This document shows positions 32,742 to 49,845 of a stretch of 64,000 bases of DNA, one piece after another. Every line of letters begins with the position of its first letter. Within the stretch, counting starts at the first letter, position 1. The translations under genes and the position numbers were made by a program. Below the pieces are notes generated by a model. The model did no database searches, was not told the origin of the DNA, and saw only the letters and a list, made by a program, of their open reading frames with translations. This stretch comes from Haematobacter missouriensis (lineage in GTDB: Bacteria > Pseudomonadota > Alphaproteobacteria > Rhodobacterales > Rhodobacteraceae), in the NCBI RefSeq assembly GCF_000740775.1, contig NZ_JFGS01000019.1, positions 1-64,000 on the forward strand, written 5' to 3'.

Positions 32742-33812
32742 TCAGGCGGCGTAGGACTGCATCACGATCTCAAGGCAGTGATCGGTATCGCCAAGCTGAT
32801 GGTCCAGCATGACGAGCCGCTTGGCGTAATGGGAGGCGGCATATTCCCAGGTCATGGCGATGCCGCCGTGCATCTGCACGGTCTCCTCCGCCACCAGCCT
32901 TGCCGCGCGCCCGATCAGGTTCTTGGCCATGGCGGATTTCAGCCGCGCCTCCGCGCCGTCCAGCGCCGCGGCTGCAGCGATGGTGATGGAGCGCGCCTGT
33001 TCGATCTCCGCCAGCAGGTCCACGGTGCGGTGTTGAAGCACCTGGAAGCTGCCGATGGTGGTGCCGAACTGGCGGCGGGTCTTGAGATAGTCGAGCAGCA
33101 GGTCATAGGCGGCGGTCATCGCGCCCACCGCCTCCGCGCAAAGCGCGACCTGCCCCGCGGCCACAGCCGATGTCAGCGCGGCCCCGGCATCCGCGAGCAG
33201 AAGCGTGGCCGGGGTATCGTCGAGCAGCAGTTCCGCCGCACCGCCGCCATCCATCATCCCGTAAGAGATGACGTTCACGTCCGCCGCCGCGGCGCTGAAC
33301 ACCGCAGGCTTTCCATCAAGCAGGGCGACGATCAGGAACACGTCCGCCACCTGCCCGCCGTAGACGGCGGACTTGCGGCCCGAAAGGCGATACCCCTCCC
33401 CCTGCTTCCGCGCCGTGGCGGCGGTCCCGGCAAGGCCATAGGGCGCGTCGATCTCGGACAGGCCCACGGCGTAGCGGATGGAACCGTCCACCAGCCCGGA
33501 CTGATCCGCTCCGGCAGCCGAGAGCAGGAGGCTCGCCAGCAGCGTGCCGAGGAGCGGCTCGGGGCAGAGGTGGCGGCCGAGCGCCTCGAACACCACGGTG
33601 ATGTCGAAGCCCGCGCCGCCGAAGCCGCCGTCCTTCTCCGTCGCGAGCGCGCCGGGGATGCCCAGCTCTGCCATCTCTCCCCAGCGTTCGGGGTCACTGA
33701 ACGGCGCCTCATGGGCGATGCGGTTGCGGTCCTTCAGGCTGTAGCGGTCAGCCAGATAGCGGTTCAGGCTTTCCGACAGCATCTGCCTGTCTTCGGTCAG
33801 ATCGAAATTCAT
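32742..33812 (-). CDS. acyl-CoA dehydrogenase, short form
   Basis: A 356-residue acyl-CoA dehydrogenase-like protein ([20 protein letters not shown] at the N-terminus, [21 protein letters not shown] and [21 protein letters not shown] late in the chain). It is shorter than a classical member, and I do not see the usual YEGT catalytic Glu segment. It starts 3 bp after a 395-residue acyl-CoA dehydrogenase, so the two may form a heteromeric enzyme as known for mycobacterial ChsE-type pairs. The flavin and ETF partner are assumed. Confidence 0.85.
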
Positions 33813-33815
33813 CGC

Positions 33816-35003
33816 TCAAACCCCCAGCATGGTCTTGGTCAGGATGTTCCGCTGGATCTCGTTCGATCCACCGAAGATGGAAGTCTTGCGGTTGTTGAAG
33901 TAGATTGCCGCATTGTGTTCCGTGTCCGCCGGGCCGAAGAGCAGGTTCGTCTCCGTCATCTGGCCCGGGAAGGGCGCTGCCACCGGACCGAGCGCACGGC
34001 GCGCAAGGTCGCGCAGCTCCTGGTTCACCTGCGTCCCCTTGATCTTGAGGATGGAGGTCTCCGGCCCCGGATGGCCCTGCTTCTGGGCTTGGAAGAGCAT
34101 GCGGAGGTTGGTGATCTTCATCGCCTCCAGATCGACCTCCACCCGCGCGATACGGGCGGCGAACAGCGGATCCTCGATCAGGGGGCGCCCGTTGCGCTTC
34201 ATCTGCCGGGCAAGATCCTTCACTTCCGCCAGCGCCTGCATGGAGGTGCCGACGCCCGCGATATTGGTCCGCTCATGGGTCAGCAGGAACTTGGCGATGG
34301 TCCAGCCCTTGTTCTCCTCGCCGACGAGGTTTTCCACAGGCACGCGGACGTTTTCGAAGAACACCTCGTTGACCTCATGGCCCCCTTCGATCAGCCGGAT
34401 CGGGCGCACCTCGATGCCGGGGGTGTCGATGTCCATGAGCAGGAAGCTGATCCCCTGCTGGGGCTTGCCCTCCGTAGAGGTGCGCACGAGGCAGAAGATC
34501 CTGTCGGCATGCTGGCCGAGCGTGGTCCAGGTCTTCTGGCCGTTGACGACGTAATGGTCCCCGTCCCTGACCGCGCGGGTCTTGAGGCTGGCAAGGTCCG
34601 ACCCGGCACCGGGTTCGGAATATCCCTGCGCCCACCAGACCTCGCCCGAGGCGATGGGGGGCAGGATCTCCGCCTTCTGCCGGTCGTTGCCGAATTCCTG
34701 GATCACCGGGCCGAGCATGTGCGGGCCGAAGGCGACGATCCGCGGCGTATGGGCGCGGCTGCATTCCACGTCGAACAGGTAGCGCTCGACAGGCGTCCAG
34801 CCGGGGCCGCCGTATTCCTTGGGCCAGCTCGTGCAGAGCCAGCCCTTGCGGCCGAGAATCTCGTGCCACTCCTGATAGATCTCGCGCGGCAGTTCCACGC
34901 CCGAGCGGACGGCGGCGGAGATATGCTCCGGCAGATGGGAGGCAAGGAAATCGCGCACTTCCTGCTGGAAGGCGAGCTCCTCGGGGCTGAAAGACAGGTC
35001 CAT
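33816..35003 (-). CDS. acyl-CoA dehydrogenase
   Basis: A 395-residue acyl-CoA dehydrogenase (WPKEYGGPGWTPVERYLFD, WAQGYSEPGAGSDLASLKT, NGQKTWTTLGQHAD, FGGSNEIQRNILTKTMLG). The middle motifs are the flavin-binding region. The enzyme introduces a double bond into an acyl-CoA, passing electrons to ETF. The short YEGT-type Glu is replaced by FGGS, so the base must lie elsewhere, as in some branched-chain members, or be supplied by the neighbouring subunit. The gene lies between thiolase (12 bp) and the shorter dehydrogenase (3 bp). Confidence 0.9.
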   Translation of the reverse strand: MDLSFSPEELAFQQEVRDFLASHLPEHISAAVRSGVELPREIYQEWHEILGRKGWLCTSWPKEYGGPGWTPVERYLFDVECSRAHTPRIVAFGPHMLGPVIQEFGNDRQKAEILPPIASGEVWWAQGYSEPGAGSDLASLKTRAVRDGDHYVVNGQKTWTTLGQHADRIFCLVRTSTEGKPQQGISFLLMDIDTPGIEVRPIRLIEGGHEVNEVFFENVRVPVENLVGEENKGWTIAKFLLTHERTNIAGVGTSMQALAEVKDLARQMKRNGRPLIEDPLFAARIARVEVDLEAMKITNLRMLFQAQKQGHPGPETSILKIKGTQVNQELRDLARRALGPVAAPFPGQMTETNLLFGPADTEHNAAIYFNNRKTSIFGGSNEIQRNILTKTMLGV

Positions 35004-35015
35004 GCGATCGCTCCC

Positions 35016-36218
35016 CTAGAGCACTTCAAAGAGGCCGGCCGCGCCCATGCCGCCCCCGACGCACATGGTGCAGACGACGTATTTCGCGCCGCGCCGCTTG
35101 CCCTCGATCAGCGCATGGCCGACCATCCGCGCGCCCGACATGCCATAGGGATGGCCGATGGAGATCGCGCCGCCGTTGACGTTGAGCAGGTCCTCCGGGA
35201 TGCCGAGCTTCCGGGCGGAGTAGAGCACCTGGCAGGCAAAGGCCTCGTTCAGCTCCCAAAGGCCGATATCGTCCATGGTCAGGCCATGCGCTTCCAGCAG
35301 CCGCGGCACGGCATAGACCGGGCCGATGCCCATCTCGTCGGGGTCCAGCCCGGCGGCCATCACGCCGACATAGCGGCCCAGCGGTTGCGCGCCGCGTTTC
35401 TCGGCTTCCTTGCCCTCCATGATGACGACGGCGGAGGCCCCGTCCGAGAGCTGCGAGGCGTTGCCCGCGGTGATGTTGTGGCCTTCCTTGACCTTCAGCC
35501 CGTCCTTGAACACCGGTTTAAGCGAGGTGAGGTCGTCCAGCGTTGTGGAGGGGCGGTTGCCTTCGTCCCGCTCCAGCGTCACCTCGCGGTAGGAAACTTC
35601 CTTCGTCTCCTTGTCCACCACGGCCATGGTGGAGGTCAGGGGCACGATCTCGTCGTCGAACAGGCCGGCCTGCTGCGCCGCCGCCGTGCGCTGCTGGGAG
35701 CGGAGCGCGTAGGCGTCCTGATCGTCGCGGCTGATGCCGTAACGGTCGGCGACGATCTCCGCCGTCTCCAGCATGGACATGTAGAGGTCCGGCACATGTT
35801 CCACGATCCACGGATCGGTGCGCCGGTCCTGCCGCATGTTCTGGTTCTGCACGAGGCTGATGGATTCGACGCCCCCGCCGATGACGATCTCCATCCCGTC
35901 ATGGACGACCTGCTTGGCGGCGGTGGCAATAGCCATCATGCCGCTCGCGCATTGCCGGTCCATCGACATCCCCGCGACGGAGGTCGGAAGTCCGGCACGG
36001 ATCACCGCCTGACGGCCTATGTTGCCGCCGGTGGAGCCCTGCTGGATGGCACAGCCGATCACGCTGTCCTGAATCTCGCCGCCTTCCAGCCCGGCACGGG
36101 AGACCGCGTTCTTGACCGCATGGCCGATCAGCTCCTGCGCCTGAGTGTTGTTGAACGCGCCCCGGAAGGCCTTGCCGATCGGCGTGCGTGCCGTGGAAAC
36201 GATGAGCGCCTCGCGCAT
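35016..36218 (-). CDS. acetyl-CoA acyltransferase (thiolase)
   Basis: A 400-residue thiolase. The nucleophile Cys is in [11 protein letters not shown] near residue 89. The C-terminal active-site His is in [17 protein letters not shown] and the second Cys in [16 protein letters not shown]. It cleaves 3-ketoacyl-CoA with CoA to give acetyl- or propionyl-CoA and a shortened acyl-CoA. ATG 36218 ([15 protein letters not shown]) is the natural start; the open frame extends much further into the neighbouring SDR gene. Terminal beta-oxidation step of this operon. Confidence 0.94.
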
Positions 36219-36247: not shown

Positions 36248-37027
36248 TCAGGCGCTTTTCGCGCGCGGACTGAACTGACGGTTGAGTTTGCGCATACCGC
36301 CGATCCAGCGGTCGTAATCTTCGGTCTTGCGGCGCATGTAGCCCAGCACCTCCGGGTGCGGCAGGGCAAGGAAATGCCCCTCCGCCACAGCCTTGAGCGC
36401 GACTGCAGCAGCCTCCGCAGGCTCCAGCATGCCGTCGATGCTGGCCACGCCCATTTCCCGCCCAGCCGTCATCGCCGTGCGAACGGCCTGCGGGCACAGG
36501 ATGGTGACGCCGATCCCATCGTCGCCATAGGTGAGCGCCAGCCATTCGGCGAGGCCGACCGCCGCGTGTTTCGTCACCCCGTAGGGCATCGAACCCACCT
36601 GGTTGAGCAGCCCCGCAGCGGAAGCGGTGATGAGGAAATGCCCCGCCCCCCGCTCCCGCATCAGCGGTAGAAGAACGCGGGCGGTGCGGACATGGGCCAT
36701 GACATTCACGTCCCACATGCGCTGCCAGACCTCGTCGGGCAGTTCCTCGCCGCCGCGCGCCATGATGCCTGCGTTGCCGCAGAACAGCGCGATGGGGCCG
36801 AGGTCGCGCTCCGTCTCCGTGACGAGGCGGCGGATATCGGCATCGCTGGCCATGTCCACCGCCATCGCGGTTCCGCCGATGGCCTGCGCCGTCTGGCGAG
36901 CGCCCTCCGCGTCGATATCGGCGCAGACGACATGGGCCGCCCCGGCCTCGGCGAGTGCGAGGGCCAGCGCCCGGCCGATCCCCCCCGCCGCGCCGGTGAC
37001 GACGACGACCTTACCCTGAACGTCCAT
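36248..37027 (-). CDS. SDR-family oxidoreductase
   Basis: A 259-residue short-chain dehydrogenase with NAD(P) motif [11 protein letters not shown] near residue 85 and catalytic Ser and Tyr-Xaa3-Lys in ITASAAGLL and YGVTK. The tail ([21 protein letters not shown]) is longer than in typical SDRs. ATG 37027 lies 2 bp after the stop of another SDR gene. In context it may oxidise a hydroxyacyl-CoA or hydroxy acid. Confidence 0.88.
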
Positions 37028-37029: not shown

Positions 37030-37821
37030 TCAACTCCACATGTTGGTGCCGCCGCAGAGCGTCAGCGCCTGCCCGGTCATGTAGCTGCTGGCGTCGGAGG
37101 CGAGGAACACCGCCACACCCGCGAAGTCCTCCGGCTGGCCGAAGCGGCGGAGCGGCACCTGTGTCCGCGCGCGCTCCTCCCCCGCCTCGCTGTCCCAGAG
37201 GGCGCGGGCGAACTCCGTCTTGACCACGCCGGGGCAGATCGCGTTCGCGCGGATGCCCTGCGGCCCGTATTCGAGCGCGAGGTTCCGCACCAGACCGATC
37301 AGCGCAAGCTTGGACATCCCGTAGGTGCCAAGCGTGGGCGACGGCTTCAACGCTCCCACACTCGCCGTGAAGATCATGGAGCCAGACCCCTTGGCGGCCA
37401 TATCGGGCGCCACGAGCCGTGCCAGCCACAGGTTCGACTGGACGTTGGTCTGCATGATCTTGTTGTAGGTCTCATCGGGGATTTCCCCGATCGGGCCGTA
37501 ATGCGGGTTCACCCCGGCATTGCCGATCACGATGTCGATCGGCCCGGCGAGCCGGTGGGTTTCTTCCACCAGCCGCTCCAGATCCTCCTTGCGCCCGGCA
37601 TTGGCGGCGACGGCGTAAACCCGCGTCTCGCCGATGGCGGCGTTGATCTCCGCCGCCGCCGCATCCAGTTGCTCCTGCTTGCGGGCGGAGATGACAACCG
37701 TCGCCCCCTGCCGCGCCAGCGCTTCCGCCATCTGCCGCCCCATCCCGCGCGAGGCGCCGGTCAGCAGCGCCACCTTGCCGGTCAGGTCGAACAAGCCCCG
37801 TTCCATCTGCTGGTCCTTCAT
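37030..37821 (-). CDS. SDR-family oxidoreductase
   Basis: A 263-residue classical SDR: TGASRGMG near residue 21, NAG near 97, Ser in TASVGAL and Tyr-Xaa3-Lys in YGMSK, and the terminal SSYMTGQALTLCGG. It should be an NAD(P)-dependent alcohol/ketone oxidoreductase. ATG 37821 starts 1 bp after the upstream acyl-CoA dehydrogenase stop, so the coupling is tight. Two SDRs in series suggest two alcohol-oxidation steps or stereoisomers. Confidence 0.88.
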   Translation of the reverse strand: MKDQQMERGLFDLTGKVALLTGASRGMGRQMAEALARQGATVVISARKQEQLDAAAAEINAAIGETRVYAVAANAGRKEDLERLVEETHRLAGPIDIVIGNAGVNPHYGPIGEIPDETYNKIMQTNVQSNLWLARLVAPDMAAKGSGSMIFTASVGALKPSPTLGTYGMSKLALIGLVRNLALEYGPQGIRANAICPGVVKTEFARALWDSEAGEERARTQVPLRRFGQPEDFAGVAVFLASDASSYMTGQALTLCGGTNMWS

Positions 37822-37822: not shown

Positions 37823-39160
37823 TCACGGCCCTTCGAACATGCCGCCGGCGCGGCGGCTGGCTGCGGCGGCGCGGCGCGCATTGGACTCCTCGAACGCCTT
37901 GCGCTCGGCGCGGGCGACGACGGCGTGGTGCACCTCGTCCGGCCCATCCGCGAGGCGGAGCGTGCGCTGCTTCATGTACATCTCCGGCAGGTCGGTCCAC
38001 TGGCTCACGCCGGTCGCGCCATGAACCTGCATCGCATCGTCGATGATCTTGCAGCAGCGCTCCGGCACCATCGCCTTGGCCATGGAGACCCAGATGCGCG
38101 CCTCCTTGTTGCCCAGCACATCCATCGCGCGCGCCGCCTTCAGCACCATGAGCCGCATGGCCTCGATCTCGATGCGGGAGCGGCTGATCGTCTCCATGTT
38201 CTTGCCGAGGTCGATGATCCGCTTGCCGAACGCCTCGCGCGAGAGGCCGCGCGCGATCATCAGGTCGAGCGCCTTCTCGGCGGCACCGATGGAGCGCATG
38301 CAGTGGTGGATACGGCCCGGCCCGAGGCGGAGCTGGCTGATCTCGAAGCCGCGCCCCTCACCCCAGAGGATGTTCTCCTCCGGCACCCGCACATCGGTGA
38401 AGCGCAGATGCATGTGCCCATGCGGCGCGTCATCGTGACCAAAGACATTCATCGGCCCGAGGATTTCCACGCCGGGCGTGTCCATGGGAACGAGGATCTG
38501 GCTCTGCTGGCGGAAGGTTTCGGCGTCGGGAGAGGTCTTGACCATGACGATCATGATCTTGCACCGCGGATCGCCGGCGCCGGAGATATAGTACTTCTCG
38601 CCGTTCATCACCCATTCGCCGTTTTCCAGCACGGCGCGCATGGACACGTTGCGGGCGTCCGATGAGGCGACATCGGGCTCGGTCATGGCAAAGGCGGAGC
38701 GGATCTCGCCGGCCAGAAGCGGCTTCAGCCAGCGTTCCTTCTGCGCGGGCGTGCCGACGCGCTCCAGCACCTCCATGTTGCCGGTATCGGGCGCCGAGCA
38801 GTTCAGCGACTGGGAGGCGAGCGGGTTCTTGCCCAGTTCGAAGGCAATATAGGCGTAGTCGAGGTTCGACAGACCTTCTCCCGTCTCGGCATCCGGCAGG
38901 AAGAAGTTCCACAGGCCCGCGGCCTTGGCCTTCGCCTTCAGATCGGCGAGGATCTCGAGCTGCCCCGGCGCGTAGGAGAACCGCTCCGCGCGGGTCCGGC
39001 CCAGACGCTCGTATTCCTCATAGGCCGGATCGCAGTGGGTGCGGATATGCTCCACCACGCGAGCCAGCAGGGGGCGCGCGCCTTCCGACATGCCGAGGTT
39101 GTTCAGCATGTCTTCCGATGCGGCACTGTCAGCCTTTTTTTTCGTGTCGATCGCGTTCAT
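37823..39160 (-). CDS. acyl-CoA dehydrogenase of the ACAD10/ACAD11-like group
   Basis: A 445-residue acyl-CoA dehydrogenase. Motifs shared with the ACAD10/ACAD11 C-terminal domain as I recall it are GPGRIHHCMRSIGAAEKAL, SRIEIEAMRLMVLKAARAM, MQVHGATGVSQWTDLPEMY and TLRLADGPDEVHHAVVA. FAD and substrate motifs FAMTEPDVASSDA and GEKYYISGAGDP are also present. In those enzymes the dehydrogenase fold acts on 4-phosphorylated acyl-CoAs made by a linked kinase. A separate APH-like kinase gene lies opposite at 43395. It overlaps the enoyl-CoA hydratase gene by 4 bp. Confidence 0.88.
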   Translation of the reverse strand: MNAIDTKKKADSAASEDMLNNLGMSEGARPLLARVVEHIRTHCDPAYEEYERLGRTRAERFSYAPGQLEILADLKAKAKAAGLWNFFLPDAETGEGLSNLDYAYIAFELGKNPLASQSLNCSAPDTGNMEVLERVGTPAQKERWLKPLLAGEIRSAFAMTEPDVASSDARNVSMRAVLENGEWVMNGEKYYISGAGDPRCKIMIVMVKTSPDAETFRQQSQILVPMDTPGVEILGPMNVFGHDDAPHGHMHLRFTDVRVPEENILWGEGRGFEISQLRLGPGRIHHCMRSIGAAEKALDLMIARGLSREAFGKRIIDLGKNMETISRSRIEIEAMRLMVLKAARAMDVLGNKEARIWVSMAKAMVPERCCKIIDDAMQVHGATGVSQWTDLPEMYMKQRTLRLADGPDEVHHAVVARAERKAFEESNARRAAAASRRAGGMFEGP

Positions 39161-39933
39161 CTGTTCACCCAGTTCGGTTTGCGTTTCTCGACGAAGGCGG
39201 TGACGCCTTCACGGAAGTCTTCGGTCTCGCGCAGGTCGGACATCACCTGACGACTGTAACGGAGGCTTGTCTGAAGGTTGTCCATGTCGTCCATCGCCCG
39301 GAGCACGCGGAGCGAGGCCCGGATGGACGAGGGGGAAACGGCGGCGATCTCTCCCGCCACTTCCATCGCCCGCTCCATCAGGCTTTCGTGGGCCACGACT
39401 TCGTTGACGAAACCCATGCGCGCACCTTCGTCGGCGCCGACCTGACGGCCGGTCAGGAACATCTCCACCGCTTGCTTGCGCGGGATCTCACGGCTCAACC
39501 GCTGGATGCCGCCCGCTGCGGCGAAGAAGCCCACCTTCACCTCCGGCAGCGCGAAACGGGCCTTCTCGGACGCGATGATCACATCGCAGGCCAGCGCCGT
39601 TTCGAACCCGCCGCCCATGGCAAAGCCGTTCACCGCCGCGACGATGGGTTTCAGCCGATCGATGCGGGAGGAGAGGCCCGAGAAACCAGTGTCCGGCCCC
39701 TTCATGTTGCCGCCCTGCGCCGTGTATTTCAGGTCATTGCCCGCGCAGAAGGCCTTGTCGCCCGCCCCTGTCAGCACGGCGACCCAGAGCTCCGGGTCCG
39801 CCTCGAACGCATCCCAGATGCGCGACATTTCATGGTGCATCGGCGCATGGACGGCATTGTACACGTCGGGTCGGTTCATCGTGACGACGAGGATATTCCC
39901 TTCCCGCCGCGTTGTCGTGAATTCGAGGTCCAT
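39157..39933 (-). CDS. enoyl-CoA hydratase (crotonase family)
   Basis: A 258-residue crotonase. Both catalytic glutamates of classical hydratases are in place: GGGFETALACD and ALPEVKVGF. The oxyanion-hole region is AFCAGNDLKY. It should add water to a 2-enoyl-CoA in the operon's beta-oxidation route. Carnitinyl-CoA dehydratase-like members are close relatives, so substrate range is open. ATG 39933 overlaps the preceding stop by one base (TGATG). Confidence 0.9.
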   Translation of the reverse strand: MDLEFTTTRREGNILVVTMNRPDVYNAVHAPMHHEMSRIWDAFEADPELWVAVLTGAGDKAFCAGNDLKYTAQGGNMKGPDTGFSGLSSRIDRLKPIVAAVNGFAMGGGFETALACDVIIASEKARFALPEVKVGFFAAAGGIQRLSREIPRKQAVEMFLTGRQVGADEGARMGFVNEVVAHESLMERAMEVAGEIAAVSPSSIRASLRVLRAMDDMDNLQTSLRYSRQVMSDLRETEDFREGVTAFVEKRKPNWVNR

Positions 39934-41237
39934 CAACCCCTCCCCCCCGTTTTGAGACCGCCGAGGTCGAGGTCCAGAAAACGACCGCCCTCCGCCGCCA
40001 GCTGCCGCAGCGATTCGGCCGGGGCAAAGACCGGATCCTCGGCGCCCAGTGCCTCCATCCGGGCAAGGATGCGCGCCGCACCCACCTGATCGGCCCAGTA
40101 CATCGGCCCGCCCTTCGACGCCGGGAAGCCATAGCCGTTCAGCCAGACCACATCGACGTCGGACGAGCGTTGCGCCTTGTTTTCCTCAAGGATCTTCACC
40201 GCCTCGTTGACCATAGGGGCCATGAGCATCTCCACGATCTCCTCCGCGGCAAGCGTGGCCGGCGCGGCGCCGGTGATCTCGTGGATGATGGCCGCGGCCT
40301 CCTCCGACGGGCTGCGGTTGCGCGCGGCGTCATAATCGTAGAAGCCGCCCCCCGTCTTCTGCCCGCGCCGCCCCTTTTCGCACAGCGCGTCGCGGATGGG
40401 GTTCGCAGTCTTGGCACCCTTGGACCAGCCGATGTCCAACCCGGCAAGGTCCGACATCTGATAGGGCCCCATCTTGAAGCCGAAGCCTGTGATGGCCGCG
40501 TCGATGTCCCAGGGCATCAGGCCCCGGTAGAGCAGCTTGTTGGCCTGCTCCCGCCGCGCCGCCAGCATCCGGTTCCCGACGAAGCCGTAGCACACGCCGA
40601 CAAGCACCGGCACCTTCCCGATCCGGCCCGCCAGATCCATGGAGGTCGCGACCACATCGTCCGCCGTCTGATCCGCCCGGACGATCTCCAGAAGCTTCAT
40701 GACGTTGGCCGGGGAGAAGAAGTGCAGTCCGATCACATCCCGGGGCCGGGAGGTGGCGGAGGCGATCTCATCGACATCCAGCGCGGAGGTATTGGTGGCG
40801 AGAATCGCGCCCGGTCTGGCGATGGCATCCAGACGGGCGAAGATCTGCTTCTTCAGGTCCATGTTCTCGAACACCGCCTCAATGATGAGGTCGCAGTCGG
40901 CCAGCTCCTCAAGGGCGAGCGCCGGGGTGATGCGCGCCATGCGCGCCTCGACCTCCGCTTGCGGGAAGCGGCCCTTGTCGGCGCTGTTCTGATAGTTCTT
41001 GCGGACCAGCGCGATGCCGCGGTCAAGCGCCTCCTGCGCCGTTTCCACGATGGTGACGGGGATACCGGCGGTGGCGAAGTTCATCGCGATGCCGCCGCCC
41101 ATCGTTCCTGCCCCGATGATGCCCACGCGGCGGATCGGGCGGAGAGGGGTTGCCGGGTCCAGCCCTTCGACCACCGCTGCCTCGCGGGTGGCACGGGCCA
41201 CGTAGCTTTCGACATCCGTCAGGGAGGGTCTGTCCAT
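39933..41237 (-). CDS. 3-hydroxyacyl-CoA dehydrogenase, FadB-like without the hydratase domain
   Basis: A 434-residue protein. An NAD-binding Rossmann domain (GIIGAGTMGGGIAMNFA, about residue 38) is followed by the 3HCDH catalytic region (GLHFFSPANVMKLLEIV with the catalytic His) and two C-terminal helical 3HCDH domains (YGFVGNRML, MNEAV-type segments). It matches the dehydrogenase half of FadB/FadJ; the hydratase half is a separate gene just downstream. It oxidises 3-hydroxyacyl-CoA to 3-ketoacyl-CoA with NAD+. Confidence 0.93.
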   Translation of the reverse strand: MDRPSLTDVESYVARATREAAVVEGLDPATPLRPIRRVGIIGAGTMGGGIAMNFATAGIPVTIVETAQEALDRGIALVRKNYQNSADKGRFPQAEVEARMARITPALALEELADCDLIIEAVFENMDLKKQIFARLDAIARPGAILATNTSALDVDEIASATSRPRDVIGLHFFSPANVMKLLEIVRADQTADDVVATSMDLAGRIGKVPVLVGVCYGFVGNRMLAARREQANKLLYRGLMPWDIDAAITGFGFKMGPYQMSDLAGLDIGWSKGAKTANPIRDALCEKGRRGQKTGGGFYDYDAARNRSPSEEAAAIIHEITGAAPATLAAEEIVEMLMAPMVNEAVKILEENKAQRSSDVDVVWLNGYGFPASKGGPMYWADQVGAARILARMEALGAEDPVFAPAESLRQLAAEGGRFLDLDLGGLKTGGRG

Positions 41238-41250
41238 TGTCCTGCCTTTC

Positions 41251-42936
41251 TCAGCGAGCGCCGTCGGCCTGCAACGACAGGCAGTGGCGCTGGATTACCT
41301 TGCGATCGATCTTTTCCGTGGCTCCGCGCGGCAGGGGCGCATCCAGCACCCAGAGCCGCTCGGGCTGTTTGAAACGCGCGACGAGGGGGGCGAGAAACCC
41401 CGCCAGCTCCTCCACCGTCAGCGAGGTGCCAGGCAGCAGATGCACCGCTGCGCCCACCGTCTCTCCCAGCCGGGGATGGGGGACGGCAAAGACGCAGGCA
41501 TCCTCCACCGCGGGGTGTTCATAGATCGCGTTTTCCACCTCGGCGCAGGCGATATTCTCGCCGCCCCGCACGATCATGCTCTTCTTGCGGCCGCAGAACT
41601 GGATGAACCCCTCCGGCCCCATGCGCGCGAGGTCGCCGGTCAGCAGCCATCCGTCGCGGAGCACGGCTGCAGTGGCAGCGGCATCGTTCAGATAACCGGG
41701 GGTCACGGCGGGGCTGCGGATCAGTAGCTCCCCCATCTCGCCCGGCGCCACGTCCCGGCCGGCGTCATCGACGATCCGCATCTCCTGAACGGGAGGAGCC
41801 AGCCGCCCTGCCGCATCCGGGTGTTCAAGATATTCCGGGCCGGAAAGGTTGATCCCCAGCGCACAGGTTTCCGTCATGCCCCAGCCGATGGCGATGGTCG
41901 TTGCCGGAAAGACGCGGTGCAGATCCTCCACCTGTGCGGCGGGCCGCTTGTCGCCGCCACCGGTGATGTTTTCCAGCGACGGCAGCGTCAGCCCGCGCCG
42001 CTCCACCGTCTCGACCAAATCGGCGGATTGCGTCGGAACGCCGCTGATGCGGGTGACGCCCTCGGCGCGGATCAGATCCACGGCCTCATCGGCATTCCAG
42101 CGAGGCATGAGCACGATCTTCGCCCCCGTCTGCAACCCCTGGAAGAAATTTGCGTAAAGCGCGGTGACATGGAACAGCGGCGAGATGATGAGCCAGGCAG
42201 GCATCGCCGGGGCACGGACGGGAACAGCAAGCTCCGGCGCCATGACCCGAAGCAGATACCAGCTCCAGATTGCCGAGATGACATTGCGATGCGTCTGTAT
42301 GACGCCCTTCGGCACACCCGAGGAGCCGGAGGAATACATCACCGCGAACTCCGCCTCCGGCGCGATATCCACCTCTGGCCAGACCGGCGCGCAGGCGCGC
42401 ATGCTCTCATAGCGGGAGGTGTCGGGCGCATCATGGATGCCGATGAGCGTCAGCCCCTCCGGCAGCACCGGGGCGAGCCGCGCGAAACGTTCGGCATCCG
42501 CAAAGACAAGCCGCGCTCCGCAATCGTTGAGGGCGCGGAGCAGTTCCGCCCCGCTTCCCCAGGCATTCAGCGGAACGACGCTGGCCCCCGTCGCGGTGAT
42601 CGCAAGGACCAGCAGAATCATCTCTGCATGGTTGCGCGAACCTATGGCAACCCGGTCGCCCGGCCCTATCCCGTGGTGGCTGATGAGAGCATGGGCGAGA
42701 GCTGCCACCTCCCGGCGGACTTCTCCATAAGTCCAGCGGTGGTCGCCCGCGACCAGCATCTCGCGCCCCGCATAGGCCTCCTCCGCCTGTTCGAACAGCG
42801 CGCGGACATTCGGGGGGGCGTTGGCAAAGACCGTGTAATCCGTGCCGTTGATCTGTTTCCGCTCCACCGCGAAACGGCTGTCCTCGCGGATCAGACGCGC
42901 GGCGACAGAGGCATGGCTCGGCAAGGCTTCGGTCAT
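41251..42936 (-). CDS. AMP-forming acyl-CoA ligase
   Basis: A 561-residue adenylate-forming enzyme: P-loop-like YSSGSSGVPKGVIQTH near residue 200, GWGMTETC, TGDLARMGPEGFIQFCGRKK, and the C-terminal Lys in ATEKIDRKVIQ. It activates a carboxylic acid to its CoA ester. As the first gene of the minus-strand operon it should prepare the pathway substrate. ATG 42936 is preceded by GGGAGGATG-type sequence. A palindrome CCTGACA-CA-TGTCAGG lies 81 bp upstream. Confidence 0.92.
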   Translation of the reverse strand: MTEALPSHASVAARLIREDSRFAVERKQINGTDYTVFANAPPNVRALFEQAEEAYAGREMLVAGDHRWTYGEVRREVAALAHALISHHGIGPGDRVAIGSRNHAEMILLVLAITATGASVVPLNAWGSGAELLRALNDCGARLVFADAERFARLAPVLPEGLTLIGIHDAPDTSRYESMRACAPVWPEVDIAPEAEFAVMYSSGSSGVPKGVIQTHRNVISAIWSWYLLRVMAPELAVPVRAPAMPAWLIISPLFHVTALYANFFQGLQTGAKIVLMPRWNADEAVDLIRAEGVTRISGVPTQSADLVETVERRGLTLPSLENITGGGDKRPAAQVEDLHRVFPATTIAIGWGMTETCALGINLSGPEYLEHPDAAGRLAPPVQEMRIVDDAGRDVAPGEMGELLIRSPAVTPGYLNDAAATAAVLRDGWLLTGDLARMGPEGFIQFCGRKKSMIVRGGENIACAEVENAIYEHPAVEDACVFAVPHPRLGETVGAAVHLLPGTSLTVEELAGFLAPLVARFKQPERLWVLDAPLPRGATEKIDRKVIQRHCLSLQADGAR

Positions 42937-43016
42937 CTCATCCTCCCAGGCAGTGGGCTCAGGAACCCGACCCGGCATCCGCTCCCTCCCCAGAGCGCAG
43001 GGATGCGGGCGACGTT

Positions 43017-43032
43017 CCTGACACATGTCAGG
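43017..43032. promoter_or_regulatory. TetR-type operator, site A
   Basis: CCTGACA-CA-TGTCAGG is an inverted repeat with 7-bp arms (core TGAC-N4-GTCA), 81 bp upstream of the CoA ligase start and facing the ten-gene operon. Confidence 0.7.
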
Positions 43033-43116
43033 GTTACGACAGCCACCCCGTACCGGACAAGAGAAAACTTTGCCTCACCGTAATTTCGGCAAAAAGGCCT
43101 TGTTGCGAGAAGCGGA

Positions 43117-43145
43117 TTGACGGCTGTCAACCGGTCCCCTAAAGT
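43117..43145 (+). promoter_or_regulatory. promoter towards the kinase gene, -35 overlapped by operator site C
   Basis: TTGACG (43117-43122) and TAAAGT (43140-43145) are separated by 17 bp. The -35 lies within TTGAC-GGCT-GTCAA, which fits the TGAC-N4-GTCA pattern. The predicted start would be just beside operator site B. The 5' leader to the kinase gene would be about 240 nt. Confidence 0.5.
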
Positions 43146-43149
43146 GATT

Positions 43150-43165
43150 CCTGACATTTGTCAGT
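43150..43165. promoter_or_regulatory. TetR-type operator, site B
   Basis: CCTGACA-TT-TGTCAGT is nearly a perfect inverted repeat with the same TGAC-N4-GTCA core as site A. It begins 5 bp after the -10 of the plus-strand promoter. Confidence 0.7.
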
Positions 43166-43234
43166 CGCGGCATGAGCCGCCGGAACAGGCGCGTGGCCGC
43201 CGCATACACTGCGCGGCGAAGAGGAGGGAGCAAC

Positions 43235-43303
43235 ATGTCACCGACAGCACGCAAGGCTGCCGCGCGGGCCTCGACCCCGGCCACATCCCGGCAAAGGTCA
43301 TGA
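43235..43303 (+). CDS. possible 22-residue leader peptide
   Basis: A tiny frame in the kinase gene leader, preceded by AGGAGGGAG at good spacing to its ATG. The product is basic and rich in Ala, Ser and Arg. It ends 91 bp before the kinase start. It may be a leader peptide or a chance frame; only the strong ribosome site supports it. Nothing else gene-like is seen in 42937-43394. Confidence 0.3.
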   Translation: MSPTARKAAARASTPATSRQRS

Positions 43304-43394
43304 CGACCGGCTCATTCACACACACACCGCTCTCAGGGCGATCCGACTCCCACTCACAGGTCCGACAGCGGGCCTGCCATCAGAGGCACAGGAC

Positions 43395-44546
43395 ATGACG
43401 GCGCAGGACAGCACAGCACGCGCGACGCCATTGCGCGACACCACGGACCGGCTCGCGGCCCAGGCACCGCAGCCTTCGGGCATCATGCTCATCGAGCCGC
43501 TCGCGAAGCATCGTTTTGACGAAGCGGCACTTTCCGCATGGATCGCGCAGACGCTGAACGAACCGGAGAGACCCATCCGCCTGCTGCAGTTCCAGGGCGG
43601 CATGTCCAACCCGACCTTCCTAGTCCGGCTGGCGGACGGGCGGCGATTCGTGCTGCGCAAGAAGCCGCCTGGAGAACTGCTGCCGAAGGCGCACGCGGTG
43701 GACCGGGAATACCGGATCATGAAAGCACTCGGCCCGACAGCCGTGCCCACGCCTCGCATGATCGCCTATTGCGACGACCCCGCCGTGATCGGAGTGGAGT
43801 TCTTTCTGATGGAATTCGTCGAGGGGCGGATCATCCCCGATCCGGCCATGGCGCCGATCGTGCGGGAGGACAGGCGGGAGGTCGCATTTTCACTGGTCGA
43901 TACGCTGGCGGAATTGCACAAGCTCGACTGGCGGGCCTGCGGGCTGCAGGATTACGGCCGCCCGGAGGGCTATCTCGCGCGGCAGACCGCCCGGTGGTCG
44001 GGGCAGTATGAGGCCTCCAAATCGGCGCTGCCCGCGGATTTCGACTATCAGGGCATGGACTGGCTGCGGGACTGGCTGCTCGCCCACTCCTCCGTGCAGG
44101 AGGAAAGCGCCATCACCCATGGCGACTTCCGCGTCGGCAACACCGTTCTCCACCCGGAGAAACCGCAGGTGGTTGCCATTCTGGACTGGGAGCTTTCCAC
44201 CATCGGCCATCCGCTTTCCGATCTGGCCTATCTCTGCCTGCCCTACCGGTTGACGGGCGCGCTGGCGGGGGCGCCCGATCTGCCCGCGGCGGGCTTGCCG
44301 CAGGAGGCGGAGATGCTCGCCCGCTATGTCGAGCGGACGGGGCGGAAGGACATTCCCGACTGGCCGGTGTTCCTTGCCTTCAACTGCTTCCGCTATGCGG
44401 CCATCGTGCAGGGTGTCGCGGCGCGGGCAGCGCAGGGCACGGCCAGCAGCGCCAGTGCCGATCCGGTCAGGGATGGCGAGCGTGCCCGCCTGGTGGCCGA
44501 GCGCGGCGCGGAAATCGCGCGGGCTTATGAGGCAGGCAAGGCCTGA
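43395..44546 (+). CDS. APH-like phosphotransferase, candidate hydroxyacyl-CoA kinase
   Basis: A 383-residue kinase-like protein of the aminoglycoside-phosphotransferase fold. Visible motifs are the nucleotide-site lysine region FVLRKKPPGEL, the catalytic loop THGDFRVGNTVL and the metal-binding AILDWELSTIGHPLSDLAY. This subgroup is the one linked to acyl-CoA dehydrogenases (N-terminal half of ACAD10/ACAD11, LvaA of the levulinate pathway) rather than to drug resistance. The likely substrate is a hydroxyacyl-CoA. A GC hairpin follows the stop. A later start at residue 31 is possible. Confidence 0.87.
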   Translation: MTAQDSTARATPLRDTTDRLAAQAPQPSGIMLIEPLAKHRFDEAALSAWIAQTLNEPERPIRLLQFQGGMSNPTFLVRLADGRRFVLRKKPPGELLPKAHAVDREYRIMKALGPTAVPTPRMIAYCDDPAVIGVEFFLMEFVEGRIIPDPAMAPIVREDRREVAFSLVDTLAELHKLDWRACGLQDYGRPEGYLARQTARWSGQYEASKSALPADFDYQGMDWLRDWLLAHSSVQEESAITHGDFRVGNTVLHPEKPQVVAILDWELSTIGHPLSDLAYLCLPYRLTGALAGAPDLPAAGLPQEAEMLARYVERTGRKDIPDWPVFLAFNCFRYAAIVQGVAARAAQGTASSASADPVRDGERARLVAERGAEIARAYEAGKA

Positions 44547-44585: not shown

Positions 44586-45302
44586 TCAACCGGCGGGATC
44601 CTCGGTGACCTCCGGCTCATCCAGGATCATCTCCGGCCCTTCCAGAATGGCCGTTACCATCACCGCCGAGCCACGCGCCACCGCGGCGACGAGAGGATCT
44701 CCCCGGGTGGCGCGTGGTTGCAGCCAGTCCCGCATCGGTGCGAAAGCGGACAGGAACACCAGCAGGTTCGCCGCCGTGATCCCGCGCGGATCATCGGGCG
44801 ACAGCCCGGCCCGGCGCGACAGCAGCGCCCCCCCTTCGGCCATCAGCTTCTCCTCCCGCTCCCGCATGGCGGCCCGGTCCTCGGGCAGCATATGCGGGAT
44901 GGAGCGGTAGATGAGCAGCGTGCCCTTGCGCTTCTTGTCCCACGTCTCCCGCAGATATTCCGACAGCACATCCTCCAGCGACCGGTCCTCCTGTGACAGA
45001 AGGTCCGTCAGCAGCGGCACGTCGGTGCGGAACCAAAGCTGGTTCAGCAACCGGCGGAGCGCATCGTTCTTGTTGGCCACATAGTCATAGATGCTGGCGT
45101 GATTGACACCGGAGCGCGCGCAGATATCGCGGATCGTTGTGGAGGCGAAGCCCTTCTCAAGAAACAAGTCAAGCGCGGCGTCGCAGATCTGCTCCCGCCG
45201 GCGCCGGACGAGGTCCTCGTTGCGCACGACATCCACATCGGCTTCGTCGAGGAAGCCCGTCTTGGGCTTTTGCGGTTTTCCGGTCGGGGGGGTCGATGTC
45301 AA
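44586..45302 (-). CDS. TetR-family regulator, candidate repressor of the acyl-CoA locus
   Basis: A 238-residue TetR protein. The N-terminal DNA-binding domain (RRREQICDAALDLFLEKGFASTTIRDICARSGVNHASIYDYVANKNDALRRL region, about residues 33-80) is preceded by a charged extension. The C-terminal domain should sense an acyl-CoA or related ligand. The frame starts with TTG at 45302. It is the only TetR gene in the locus and is flanked by kinase and crotonase genes whose promoters carry TGAC-N4-GTCA palindromes, so it is the obvious candidate to bind them. Confidence 0.85.
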   Translation of the reverse strand: MTSTPPTGKPQKPKTGFLDEADVDVVRNEDLVRRRREQICDAALDLFLEKGFASTTIRDICARSGVNHASIYDYVANKNDALRRLLNQLWFRTDVPLLTDLLSQEDRSLEDVLSEYLRETWDKKRKGTLLIYRSIPHMLPEDRAAMREREEKLMAEGGALLSRRAGLSPDDPRGITAANLLVFLSAFAPMRDWLQPRATRGDPLVAAVARGSAVMVTAILEGPEMILDEPEVTEDPAG

Positions 45303-45436: not shown

Positions 45437-45450
45437 CTGACGATTGTCAG
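45437..45450. promoter_or_regulatory. TetR-type operator, site D
   Basis: CTGAC-GATT-GTCAG is a perfect 5-bp-arm inverted repeat with the locus motif TGAC-N4-GTCA. It is 23 bp upstream of the crotonase start and followed by AT-rich GATAATATATAG, probably the -10 region. Confidence 0.7.
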
Positions 45451-45473: not shown

Positions 45474-46268
45474 ATGACCGATCAAGTTCTTCTGAACCGG
45501 CAGAACGGACTGCTGACGATCACCTTGAACCGGCCCGAGCGGCGCAACGCCATGTCGCCCGCGATGACGGCGGCTCTGACCGAGGCTCTCGCCGCTGCGG
45601 CGGAGGATGATGCGGTCCGGGCAGTCCTGCTGACGGGAGCGGGCGGGCATTTCTGCGTGGGCGGCGACGTGAAGGCGATGAACGAAGGCGCAGGCGCGGA
45701 CAGGCCCGTGGGCCAGCGCCTCCACACGCTCCGCGACCGCATGAGTGCAGCTTTGTACCTCCACACCATGCCGAAGCCCACCATTGCCGCCATCGAAGGC
45801 TCCGCCGCGGGGGCCGGCCTGTCGCTGGCGATGGCCTGTGACCTGCGGATCTGTGCGGATGACGCGAAACTCACCACCGCCTTTGCCAAGGTGGCGCTGT
45901 CAGGGGATTTCGGCGGCAGCTACTTCCTCACCCACATCCTTGGCGGGGCGAAGGCGCGGGAGCTTTACCTGCTGTCGCCGCTGCTGTCGGGGGCGGAGGC
46001 TGCGGAGATCGGCCTTGTCACCCGTGCCCTTCCGGCGGGCGCCGTCATGGAAACGGCGCGCGGCCTTGCCGCCGATCTCGCCGCCGGGCCGACGCTCACC
46101 TACGGGCGGATGAAACAGAACCTGACACTCGCGGCCACGGGCGGCAGCCTTGCGGACTGTCTGGATCAGGAGGCGCGGAACCACACGCTTTCCATGCTGA
46201 CCGCGGATCACCGGGAGGCGGCGGCAGCCTTTGTGGAAAAGCGCAAGGCAGCCTTCGCGGGGGCTTAG
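45474..46268 (+). CDS. crotonase-family protein, isomerase-like
   Basis: A 264-residue enoyl-CoA hydratase/isomerase fold (oxyanion region HFCVGGDVKAMN, AAGAGLSLAMACD). Neither of the two catalytic Glu residues of true hydratases is present: the positions read GAGLSLA and FAKVALSGDFGG. The Asp in SGDFGGSYFL matches the catalytic Asp of PaaG-type isomerases. I therefore expect double-bond isomerisation rather than hydration. It stands alone under operator site D. Confidence 0.85.
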   Translation: MTDQVLLNRQNGLLTITLNRPERRNAMSPAMTAALTEALAAAAEDDAVRAVLLTGAGGHFCVGGDVKAMNEGAGADRPVGQRLHTLRDRMSAALYLHTMPKPTIAAIEGSAAGAGLSLAMACDLRICADDAKLTTAFAKVALSGDFGGSYFLTHILGGAKARELYLLSPLLSGAEAAEIGLVTRALPAGAVMETARGLAADLAAGPTLTYGRMKQNLTLAATGGSLADCLDQEARNHTLSMLTADHREAAAAFVEKRKAAFAGA

Positions 46269-46616: not shown

Positions 46617-48290
46617 TCATTCGGCGGCAGACACCGCCCCGAAGTCCCGCGCCGCGCGTTCCTGCAATTCCAGCCACTGGACCTTGCCGCTGCCGGAGCG
46701 AGGCAGAGCCTCCACATAGACCACGCGGCGCGGCACCTTGTAGGCGGCCATCTGCTCCCGGCACCAGGCGATCAGATCGGCCTCCGGCAGTTCGCCCCTC
46801 GGCACGACATAGGCCAGCACAGCCTCTCCCCGGCGCGGATCGGGATAGCCAACGATACACGCCTCCACAATGCCGGGATGGGCATGCATCAGCGCCTCCA
46901 CCTCCGTCGGCCACACCTTGAAGCCTGAGGCGTTCACCATCCGCTTCACCCGGTCGACGATGTAGAAATAACCGTCCCGGTCATACCGCGCGATGTCGCC
47001 CGTGCGCAGGAACCGCTTGCCGTCGCGTTCCAGAAAGGCGGCGCGGGTCGCTTCCTCGTTGTTCCAGTAGCCATGGAACACCTGCGGCGCGCTGACGATG
47101 ATCTCTCCCGGCTCCTCGGGGCCGAGTTCCCGGCCGGTATCCGGGTCGATGATCCGTGCGTCCACGTCGAACACCGGGATGCCAAGACATTGCGGGCGGG
47201 GCGCGTCATGCGGGTTGATGAGGACGCCTGCAATCGTCTCCGTCATACCGTAGCCTTCGATATAGTCGAGCCCGGTCAGCGCCTTCAGCCGCGCGGCGAC
47301 GGCCGCAGGCATGGCCGCACCGCCGCCGCCCAGCGTCTGGAGGCTCGCAAGATCCTCGGCCCGGATATCGGGGTCGCTGACCAGATCGACGATCATGGTG
47401 GAGATGCTGCGCCATCGTGCGATGCGGTAGCGGCGGATCAGCTCCACCGCCACGCGCCGGTCCCAACGGGACATGAGCACGATCGTCTCCCCCGCATGGA
47501 TCGGGCCGTTCATGGAGTTCTGCATCCCCGTGACATGGAACAGCGGCAGGACGGAAAGCGTGGCGCCCCCCTCCCCCAGCGGGTTCCACACCACGCTGCC
47601 GACAAGCGTCGTCTGAAGCGTCGCGTGACTATGCATGCAGCCCTTCTGGCGCCCCGTCGTCCCGGAGGTATACGGGATCGCGGCAAGATCATCGCCGTCG
47701 GTGGTGACGAGGCCGGGGGTCAGGCCCGCCGCTTCCATCGCGCGCCATCCGGTAACGCCCGCCGGATAGTCATCCCGCTCACCGGCTTCGAGGCCCGACG
47801 GAAGGGGGATATCGCATGTCGGATCGGCCATGTCCGCATAGGCCGCCGCCAGCACATGCGCCAACGGCCTGCCGATCAGCGGCGCGATATGGTCCAGAAG
47901 CTCCTGCCCCACGATCGCCACGCGCGCGCCGCTGTCGGCGACGACATGTTCCATCTCGCGCAGTCGGTTCATCGGGTTCACCGGCACGGCGACCGCATTC
48001 GCCCGCAGGATGGCATGGAAGGCGATGATGAACTGCGGGCTGTTCTGCATGTAAAGGACGACGCGGTCGCCCCGCCGTACGCCAGCGCGCTCCTGAAGCC
48101 AGCCCGCGAGCCGTATCACCCGCGCCTGAAGCGCGGCATAGGTGATCTCCGTCCCGTGGTAGATGATCGCGACAGCCTCCGGCACCCGCTCCGCCGACAG
48201 GCGCAGGTTCTCGGCCACGTTGTGCCGGGGGGCGTCGAGCCGTTCGGGAACCCCTGCGGGCCAGGGGCGGACAGGATCAGACATCGGCAC
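46617..48290 (-). CDS. AMP-forming acyl-CoA ligase
   Basis: A 557-residue adenylate-forming ligase with IPYTSGTTGRQKGCMHSH near residue 200, EGYGMTETIAG, TGDIARYDRDGYFYIVDRVK and a C-terminal SGSGKVQWLELQ region carrying the catalytic Lys. It fits long- or medium-chain fatty-acid:CoA ligases. It overlaps the preceding ligase gene by 14 bp (8 bp if the second ATG is used). Last gene of the MaoC-to-ligase set. Confidence 0.9.
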   Translation of the reverse strand: MPMSDPVRPWPAGVPERLDAPRHNVAENLRLSAERVPEAVAIIYHGTEITYAALQARVIRLAGWLQERAGVRRGDRVVLYMQNSPQFIIAFHAILRANAVAVPVNPMNRLREMEHVVADSGARVAIVGQELLDHIAPLIGRPLAHVLAAAYADMADPTCDIPLPSGLEAGERDDYPAGVTGWRAMEAAGLTPGLVTTDGDDLAAIPYTSGTTGRQKGCMHSHATLQTTLVGSVVWNPLGEGGATLSVLPLFHVTGMQNSMNGPIHAGETIVLMSRWDRRVAVELIRRYRIARWRSISTMIVDLVSDPDIRAEDLASLQTLGGGGAAMPAAVAARLKALTGLDYIEGYGMTETIAGVLINPHDAPRPQCLGIPVFDVDARIIDPDTGRELGPEEPGEIIVSAPQVFHGYWNNEEATRAAFLERDGKRFLRTGDIARYDRDGYFYIVDRVKRMVNASGFKVWPTEVEALMHAHPGIVEACIVGYPDPRRGEAVLAYVVPRGELPEADLIAWCREQMAAYKVPRRVVYVEALPRSGSGKVQWLELQERAARDFGAVSAAE

Positions 48291-49845
48291 CCTCCTTCCG
48301 GGACGGATCGGCCCGGGAAGGATCAGGCCGGGCGGAAAGCTCGGGCCAGCGGTCCCGCAGCTCCCGCTTCAGCACCTTGCCGATCACGCTGCGGGGCAGT
48401 TCGGGCAGAACGGCGACCCCGGCGAGCCGCTGGAACCGGCCGACGCGGGCGTTGGTCCACTCCCGCACCGCCTCCGGCTCCCCACCGGGGGCGAGCACGA
48501 CGCAGGCCACCGGCGTCTCCCCCCACTCGCGGCTGGGCACACCGATCACCGCGCAGTCCGTCACGTCGGTATGGGTGGAAAGGACCGCCTCGATATCCGC
48601 GGCGAAAATGTTGAACCCGCCGGAGATGATCATGTCCTTCCGCCGGTCGAGCAACGTCAGGAAGCCATCCTCGTCCAGCCGGCCCATGTCGCCCGACCGG
48701 ATATAGGGCACACCCTCCGGGCTGTTCCATGTCAGATCGCGCGTGGCTTCGGGCGCATTGCGATAGCCGCGCATCATCGTGGTGGACCGGCCCACCACCT
48801 CCCCCGTCTCACCCTGCGGCAGAGGGCGGCCGGCTTCGTCGAGGATCAGGATTTCCGCCCCCGCCCCCGGCCTGCCGACAGTGTGAAGCTTTTCGGGCCA
48901 GGCGGAACAGTCGAGCACCGCGCTCACCCCGCCCTCCGTCATGCCGTAGATGTTGATCATCCGTCCCGGCCAGCGGGCCAGCACCTGCTCCACCACCGCA
49001 GGGTTCAAGGGCGCGCTGGTGGAAAGCTTCGCCTGATAGGAGGACAGGTCGAACCGGTCAAACTCCGGATGCTCGATGACCCGCCGGATCTGGACCGGGA
49101 CCATCATGCTGTGGGTGACGCGATGCGCCTCCGCGAGCGCGAGGAACCCCCGCGCGTCGAACTTGCGCATCAGGATCACCCGCCCGCCCATCGCCAGCAC
49201 CGGGATCAGCGTGGCAAGCGTGGTGTTGGAATAGAGGGGTGTCGAGAACAGGACCGTCGACTCCTCGCTCAACCCGAACCGGCGGAACCGGTCCACCTGA
49301 TTGTCCCGGAACCGGACGTCGTGCTCTATCCCCTTGGGAGCGCCGGTCGTGCCGGAGCTGTAGATGATGTCGAACAGGGTATCGGGCTGGATGCGGCGGG
49401 GCGGCAAGGGGGCGAGCGCCCGAGCTTCTGCCACGAAACCTTCCAGTTCCCGGGCGCCGGGCGTCTCTGGCGCAGCGGCATCGGCAAAGACCTGCGCCGC
49501 GCCCGCATTCTCCCGCATCCGGGCCAGCGCCTCGGGATGGCCGGAGGTCGGCAGCGGCGCCACGCAGACGCCAAGCGCAGCAGCACCCAGATAAAGCGTG
49601 AGGTGGTCGGCGGTCAGCCCGCCCACGGTCGCGATCACATCGCCCTCGGTCAGACCGAGCGCGGCCAGCGCCGCCGCCACCCTGTCCATCCGGTCCACCA
49701 ATGCGGCAGCCGTGATCTCCTGCGGGCCGTCGATCAGGGCGATATGCTCCGGCCGCTTTGCGGCCTCGGCGCGGATGCGGTGCGGAATGTCCAGCACCTC
49801 CTCCTCCACCGGGATAGGCCAGAGGCGCATTTCCGCCGCGGTCAT
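48277..49845 (-). CDS. AMP-forming acyl-CoA ligase
   Basis: A 522-residue adenylate-forming enzyme (IIYSSGTTGAPKGIEHD near residue 170, NIYGMTEGGVSAVLD, RSGDMGRLDEDGFLTLLDRRKD, VIGKVLKRELRD with the catalytic Lys). It activates a carboxylic acid with ATP and CoA. ATG 49845 overlaps the stop of a 21-codon frame (ATGA); a GTG at 49854 is the alternative start. Two ligases back to back plus a third at 41251 suggest several related acid substrates. Confidence 0.9.
   Translation of the reverse strand: MTAAEMRLWPIPVEEEVLDIPHRIRAEAAKRPEHIALIDGPQEITAAALVDRMDRVAAALAALGLTEGDVIATVGGLTADHLTLYLGAAALGVCVAPLPTSGHPEALARMRENAGAAQVFADAAAPETPGARELEGFVAEARALAPLPPRRIQPDTLFDIIYSSGTTGAPKGIEHDVRFRDNQVDRFRRFGLSEESTVLFSTPLYSNTTLATLIPVLAMGGRVILMRKFDARGFLALAEAHRVTHSMMVPVQIRRVIEHPEFDRFDLSSYQAKLSTSAPLNPAVVEQVLARWPGRMINIYGMTEGGVSAVLDCSAWPEKLHTVGRPGAGAEILILDEAGRPLPQGETGEVVGRSTTMMRGYRNAPEATRDLTWNSPEGVPYIRSGDMGRLDEDGFLTLLDRRKDMIISGGFNIFAADIEAVLSTHTDVTDCAVIGVPSREWGETPVACVVLAPGGEPEAVREWTNARVGRFQRLAGVAVLPELPRSVIGKVLKRELRDRWPELSARPDPSRADPSRKEGADV

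Follow-up and report, generated by a model that had tools for sequence, protein, structure and literature searches.

A putative TetR regulon of Haematobacter missouriensis containing an ACAD10/11-type dehydrogenase, a separate APH-fold kinase, and a histidine-phosphatase-fold protein

Results

We analyzed a stretch of 64,000 nucleotides from Haematobacter missouriensis (contig NZ_JFGS01000019.1, positions 1 to 64,000; the window), in which genes for an ACAD10/11-type acyl-CoA dehydrogenase (ACAD) and an APH-fold kinase lie in an island of catabolic genes. The island probably forms a regulon for the catabolism of a 4-hydroxy or 4-oxo carboxylic acid, which would be degraded by phosphorylation of its hydroxyl group followed by elimination of the phosphate. 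This chemistry had been put forward in the original prediction, and the family membership of both proteins, their co-regulation, and the surrounding β-oxidation genes speak for it; the special significance attached to the split between kinase and dehydrogenase did not hold. The two genes were found at the predicted coordinates and strands:

37823-39160, minus strand: ACAD10/11-type 4-phosphoacyl-CoA eliminase/dehydrogenase (445 residues), activity predicted from ACAD11 structure matches, the tree, and active-site residues
43395-44546, plus strand: APH-fold 4-hydroxyacyl-CoA kinase, LvaA/ACAD11-kinase-like (383 residues), activity predicted from Pfam, structures, the tree, and residues

Dehydrogenase

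The dehydrogenase is full-length and contains the motifs by which it had been assigned to the ACAD10/11 C-terminal domain. Its top matches among solved structures are ACAD11 (8v3u, E 7e-116; 8v3v; 2wbi) and a homolog from M. abscessus (4hr3), whereas conventional ACADs rank far lower, from E 3e-38. It shares 51% identity with mouse ACAD11 over 391 aligned residues, and R278, R283, H286, C287, M288, R289, and D405 correspond to R626, R631, H634, C635, M636, R637, and D753 of the mouse enzyme. Mutagenesis of mouse ACAD11 indicated that R626, H634, and R637 contact the phosphate and that D753 is the base, and their mutation abolishes phosphate elimination; R631 is conserved across ACADs (PMC12440821). 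The HCMR motif and its upstream Arg (R278, H286, R289) are thus present as in the ACAD10/11 type, and the catalytic residue D405 is likewise Asp rather than Glu. None of the ACAD11-equivalent active-site residues varies among the 115 near relatives, and 68/68 more distant relatives have them too. Two neighboring ordinary ACADs lack them, except that one retains the equivalent of R631. The best other ACAD in the genome is at most 34% identical to the dehydrogenase, the sole ACAD10/11-like protein there.

Identities of the relatives to the window dehydrogenase are bimodal, with 115 at about 67-100% and 68 at 43-66%, mostly 50-60%. The group of 115 forms one clade (Shimodaira-Hasegawa-like approximate likelihood-ratio test, SH-aLRT, 100). 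Its members, at about 70% identity or more, come from Rhodobacteraceae, Alloalcanivorax, Halopseudomonas, Caulobacterales, Hyphomonadaceae, and metagenome-assembled genomes labelled Acidimicrobiia or Actinomycetota. The clade is tightly conserved: over the alpha- and gammaproteobacterial members and the genomes labelled Actinomycetota, identities run from about 67 to 86%. Other alphaproteobacterial proteins form the sister clade, and mammalian ACAD11 stands apart. In the placement that had been suggested as a check, the dehydrogenase groups with mouse and human ACAD11 and 4hr3 in a broader clade of 77 rows (SH-aLRT 100), in a tree that left out LvaA/LvaC and the conventional ACADs, the latter separated by search scores alone. 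Six distant homologs sharing the motifs fall outside this clade. Distant ACADs (36-39% identity) with the full HCMR/Asp signature, located near APH kinases in six loci (L012, L013, L032, L034, L220, and L234), constitute another such lineage, divergent from the first.

Kinase

The kinase contains the motif cited for the ACAD10/11 N-terminal half and is a full-length ACAD11-type kinase. It matches Pfam APH with an E value of 1.5e-47, and its top structure is 3dxp (E 6e-84), followed by the kinase domain of ACAD11 (E 2e-70). The identity with mouse ACAD11 is 40% over 334 aligned residues. The HGDxxxxN catalytic loop and an Arg are retained, with D244, N249, and R196 corresponding to mouse D220, N225, and R176; the comparison covers these three residues, and the alignment column of R86, a CoA contact in ACAD11, was uncertain. 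The genome has a single further APH protein above the cut-off, with a far weaker match. Because no other ACAD exceeds 34% identity either, the dehydrogenase and the kinase have no plausible partner but each other.

The window kinase belongs to a clade of nine rows (SH-aLRT 100), every member of which adjoins a dehydrogenase of the window clade. In Sulfitobacter and other Rhodobacteraceae, the kinase found 4-16 kb from a dehydrogenase of this clade is of a different lineage; in Caulobacterales and Nitriliruptoraceae, kinases of yet other lineages directly adjoin such a dehydrogenase. Since different kinase lineages accompany one dehydrogenase clade, the linkage must have arisen more than once.

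Gene content and conservation of the island

The companions listed in the original prediction (three ligases, two short-chain dehydrogenases/reductases (SDRs), S-type hydratases, a MaoC-type hydratase, and a thiolase) are all in the window, and the profile matches support a complete β-oxidation set around the kinase and dehydrogenase genes:

31268-32716, minus strand: membrane protein, last gene of the dehydrogenase operon (hydrophobic sequence; no NCBIfam or Pfam match)
32742-33812, minus strand: ACAD, partner subunit, PimD/IpdE2-like (profile match)
33816-35003, minus strand: ACAD, large subunit, of a ChsE4/ChsE5- or PimC/D-like pair (profile and PDB matches)
35016-36218, minus strand: acetyl-CoA acyltransferase (thiolase; profile match)
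36248-37027, minus strand: SDR 2 (profile match, conserved neighbor)
37030-37821, minus strand: SDR 1, putative LvaD-like role (the same SDR type adjoins kinase/ACAD genes in several gammaproteobacterial loci)
39157-39936, minus strand: enoyl-CoA hydratase 1, EchA19-like, below the curated cut-off (profile match, conserved neighbor)
39933-41237, minus strand: 3-hydroxyacyl-CoA dehydrogenase (profile match, conserved neighbor)
41251-42936, minus strand: acyl-CoA ligase 1, first gene of the dehydrogenase operon (profile match; neighbor kept in 17/26 regions)
44586-45302, minus strand: TetR-family regulator, conserved with the module (profile match, neighborhood comparison)
45474-46268, plus strand: enoyl-CoA hydratase 2 (profile match)
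46617-48290, minus strand: acyl-CoA ligase 2 (profile match)
48277-49854, minus strand: acyl-CoA ligase 3 (profile match)
50046-50465, minus strand: PaaI-family thioesterase (so annotated in H. massiliensis)
50478-51143, minus strand: histidine-phosphatase-fold protein, second catalytic His replaced by Ser (Pfam, alignments)
51145-52149, minus strand: nitronate-monooxygenase-family flavoprotein (profile and Pfam matches)
52146-52616, minus strand: MaoC-family hydratase (profile match)

Among 26 compared regions, the dehydrogenase recurs in 25, ligase 1 in 17, SDR 2 in 16, SDR 1 in 15, hydratase 1 in 14, the 3-hydroxyacyl-CoA dehydrogenase and the TetR gene in 13 each, and the kinase in 11. The gammaproteobacterial loci carry additional genes that read as a TRAP uptake system. 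On Sulfitobacter pSpoCB-1, the kinase is adjoined by a histidine phosphatase, a thiolase, two SDRs, and an ACAD pair. In a second type of locus (L171-L173), homologs of the kinase, SDR 1, ligases 2 and 3, MaoC, and the ACAD pair accompany an LvaC-like dehydrogenase and a gene for a SurE phosphatase.

A collinear counterpart of the 24-kb island (98% covered, 89% identity) lies on pOT1-2, a conjugative plasmid of H. massiliensis, and the window itself sits on a contig of 73.7 kb. The island is very probably a self-contained catabolic regulon of plasmid type. At 197-1246, the window resembles IS5-like element ISPko1-family transposase genes of Paracoccus and Haematobacter plasmids.

Palindromes and the putative TetR regulon

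Two perfect palindromes, CTGACANNTGTCAG, were found by reading the sequence of the ligase 1/kinase promoter region, and three further sites are related to them:

43018-43031, no strand: operator-like palindrome CTGACACATGTCAG, ligase 1/kinase promoter region
43151-43164, no strand: operator-like palindrome CTGACATTTGTCAG, ligase 1/kinase promoter region
45437-45450, no strand: operator-like palindrome with 1 mismatch, TetR/hydratase 2 promoter region
52637-52650, no strand: operator-like palindrome with 1 mismatch, before the MaoC operon
52768-52781, no strand: operator-like palindrome with 1 mismatch, before the MaoC operon/substrate-binding protein

With up to 2 mismatches, the 14-base form has these five sites in 64 kb, every one in a promoter region of the island. 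The 12-base core with at most 1 mismatch occurs at seven sites, compared with 0.76 expected, and none of 100 shuffles reached that number; the extra sites are at 43118, in the ligase 1/kinase region, and at 30252, before a nitroreductase gene. Exact copies of the palindrome occur in 14/325 loci (3.3 Mb), and 13 of those 14 are among the 16 loci that carry a homolog of the island TetR. They typically lie 20-400 bases before the kinase, ligase 1, or the dehydrogenase. The TetR protein may bind these palindromes as a repressor-operator pair, and co-regulation of the kinase and dehydrogenase genes is supported by the site distribution. Together with the three CoA ligases, two SDRs, hydratases, thiolase, and ChsE-like pair, they appear to constitute one TetR regulon.

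Histidine-phosphatase-fold protein

The gene at 50478-51143 lies within the MaoC operon of the putative regulon. Its product shares the fold family of histidine phosphatase superfamily branch 1 (PF00300) and the first catalytic His in an RHG motif. In contrast to those phosphatases, its second catalytic His is replaced by Ser, as it is throughout the subfamily in the alignment (55/55 rows, including a few genes fetched twice); the His is kept in 18/18 paralogs from the same genomes outside the subfamily and in the nearest solved structure, 9mmh. Relatives directly adjoin the kinase in Sulfitobacter and other Rhodobacteraceae, and in other families they lie between or beside the ACAD and kinase genes. 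Examples of the subfamily are L166:35827-36474, L264:179-865, and L288:6443-7210.

The count in 299 genomes is less biased because the other survey windows were picked near kinases. It yielded 49 members in 47 genomes, 24 of the members being no more than about 6 kb from a kinase or an ACAD10/11-like gene when coordinates were compared by eye, for which we estimate a chance expectation of well under one. Roughly half of the members show no such linkage. An ACAD10/11-like gene is present in 44 of the 47 genomes, compared with 85/299 overall. Three weak phosphatase matches from a survey of 60 kinases retain the His and were excluded from the subfamily. In five gammaproteobacterial loci (L171, L172, L173, L180, and L181), a SurE-family phosphatase gene directly adjoins the kinase and replaces the histidine-phosphatase-like gene. 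A single-sequence AlphaFold model of the protein was poor (mean predicted local distance difference test score of 44) and was not used.

The protein may be a partner of the kinase and not a phosphatase. We tentatively propose, at somewhat less than even chances, that it is a widespread unrecognized non-phosphatase subunit or brake of the 4-hydroxyacyl-CoA kinase, filling the place of LvaB and, convergently, that of the HAD domain of ACAD10. In human ACAD10, the kinase is held back by a HAD domain whose phosphatase motif is incomplete (PMC11342911); the parallel is suggestive only. The putative partner makes testable how such kinases avoid trapping CoA as phospho-intermediates, a question that has been raised for human ACAD10.

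Discussion

Proposed route

The following steps are drawn from work on ACAD10/11 and the Lva enzymes, and the reaction, step order, and substrate class are inferred. A CoA ligase would activate the acid, and an SDR would interconvert the 4-oxo- and 4-hydroxyacyl-CoA where needed. The kinase would then phosphorylate the 4-hydroxyl group of the CoA ester. The ACAD10/11-type enzyme would eliminate the phosphate to give a 2-enoyl-CoA after transient oxidation and re-reduction dependent on flavin adenine dinucleotide (FAD), with Asp405 as the base, FAD as a transient electron carrier, and Arg278, His286, and Arg289 holding the phosphate. Hydratases, the 3-hydroxyacyl-CoA dehydrogenase or an SDR, the thiolase, and the ChsE-like pair could complete β-oxidation, and the TetR repressor would control the gene set through the CTGACANNTGTCAG sites.

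The adjacent large and small ACAD genes (32742-35003) resemble ChsE4-ChsE5 and PimC/PimD but score below the equivalog cut-offs. The closest PDB entries of the large ACAD are M. tuberculosis 4x28, which we take to be ChsE4-ChsE5, and Tcur3483. The pair points to a bulky or branched acid and, together with the three ligases, suggests one larger or more branched than levulinate. A lactone-derived substrate is possible; no lactonase or Baeyer-Villiger enzyme was recognized in the island. Near a member of the dehydrogenase clade in a 7-Mb alphaproteobacterial genome, a gene that reads as Baeyer-Villiger monooxygenase-like (L161:2-1381) is a possible lactone source there. No substrate-indicating gene was found in common among the clade members outside Rhodobacteraceae, whose neighborhoods varied.

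Comparison with known systems

ACAD10/11-type chemistry was explained only in 2017-2025. In the lva operon of Pseudomonas putida KT2440, LvaA is reportedly a separate kinase, LvaC a separate ACAD-family enzyme, and LvaR a sigma-54 regulator, and the 12-kDa LvaB is said to be required together with LvaA. The island likewise has a separate kinase and ACAD-family enzyme, a ligase, an SDR, and a predicted route through a phosphorylated acyl-CoA; it differs in its TetR regulon, a far larger β-oxidation set, and a separate dehydrogenase clade. Compared with mammalian ACAD10/ACAD11, the island proteins retain every active-site residue tested against the ACAD11 dehydrogenase and kinase, but they are two proteins rather than one fusion, lack a HAD domain, and share only the identities given above (51% and 40%). 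Separate orthologs from B. pseudomallei substitute for the ACAD10 domains in vitro and are active on 4-hydroxyacyl-CoAs (PMC11342911). ACAD10/11-like genes are also widespread, being present in 72/149 genomes of the window's family, 85/299 of its phylum, and 116/119 of one gammaproteobacterial genus. Separate proteins are therefore the bacterial norm, and the split is not special.

That genus was searched as Pseudomonas (G202, G276, G334, G380, G404, G429, and 110 more genomes with the gene). In the genomes inspected, the ACAD10/11-like gene either neighbors a liu-like leucine cluster or has no accompanying kinase and is not shown to be LvaC; the kinase is located elsewhere, often within a phosphatase-like/kinase/SDR cluster.

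The original prediction also said that the exact substrate and pathway look undescribed. The chemistry is known from levulinate-eating bacteria and from human ACAD10/ACAD11; no published description of the locus was found in the open-access literature, and the substrate, the conserved regulon, and its recurring partner lacking a phosphatase catalytic residue are not described.

Alternative explanations

The island might instead be a levulinate operon under another regulator, in which a ligase, SDR, kinase, and ACAD turn levulinate into 3-hydroxyvaleryl-CoA. The enzyme set is the same as that of lvaA/C/D/E, and an lva-type cluster of P. citronellolis also has a histidine phosphatase gene and no lvaB (PMC6692424). 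However, the window dehydrogenase clade is 43-66% identical to other ACAD10/11-like proteins, while two known LvaC are 78% identical to each other (PMC6692424). The island regulator is of the TetR family and not LvaR-type sigma-54, and a C5 acid needs no extra ChsE-like ACAD pair, thiolase, and hydratases; we consider this explanation improbable. It is less improbable, though still doubtful, that the route degrades a bulky side chain of a steroid, bile acid, or isoprenoid, with a hydroxyl or tertiary alcohol in the gamma position relative to the thioester being removed through the phosphorylation step. Such a route would be a special case of the 4-hydroxy acid regulon, with the substrate specified. 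The PDB matches of the large ACAD agree with it, as do the high scores of ligase 1 against the steroid-24-oyl-CoA synthetase model and of hydratase 1 against EchA19, both of which are far below the cut-offs. No steroid ring-degradation genes were recognized in the island, however, and marine alkane degraders and Sulfitobacter have the core module without the ChsE-like pair.

It is very improbable that the kinase and dehydrogenase are unrelated neighbors, the ACAD serving ordinary β-oxidation and the kinase inactivating an antibiotic or phosphorylating a small metabolite. The APH fold and weak matches to aminoglycoside and macrolide phosphotransferase models would fit, but the resistance models remain far below their cut-off (40 of 205 bits) in comparison with the ACAD11 kinase (E 2e-70), and a resistance role was rejected. 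Conserved phosphate-binding residues, co-regulation, and repeated linkage also speak against mere proximity.

Some observations count against a catabolic regulon for 4-hydroxy or 4-oxo acids. The function of the dehydrogenase clade is read here from sequence alone, and many of its members outside Rhodobacteraceae and alkane degraders have no kinase within 10 kb. No LvaB-like gene was noticed in the island, where no search with the LvaB sequence was made. Other species have a short conserved ligase/SDR/hydratase module but no ChsE-like pair with it; therefore, the core may not need this pair. The putative regulon, its operator-like sequence, and the distinct dehydrogenase clade make the substrate findable by direct experiment.

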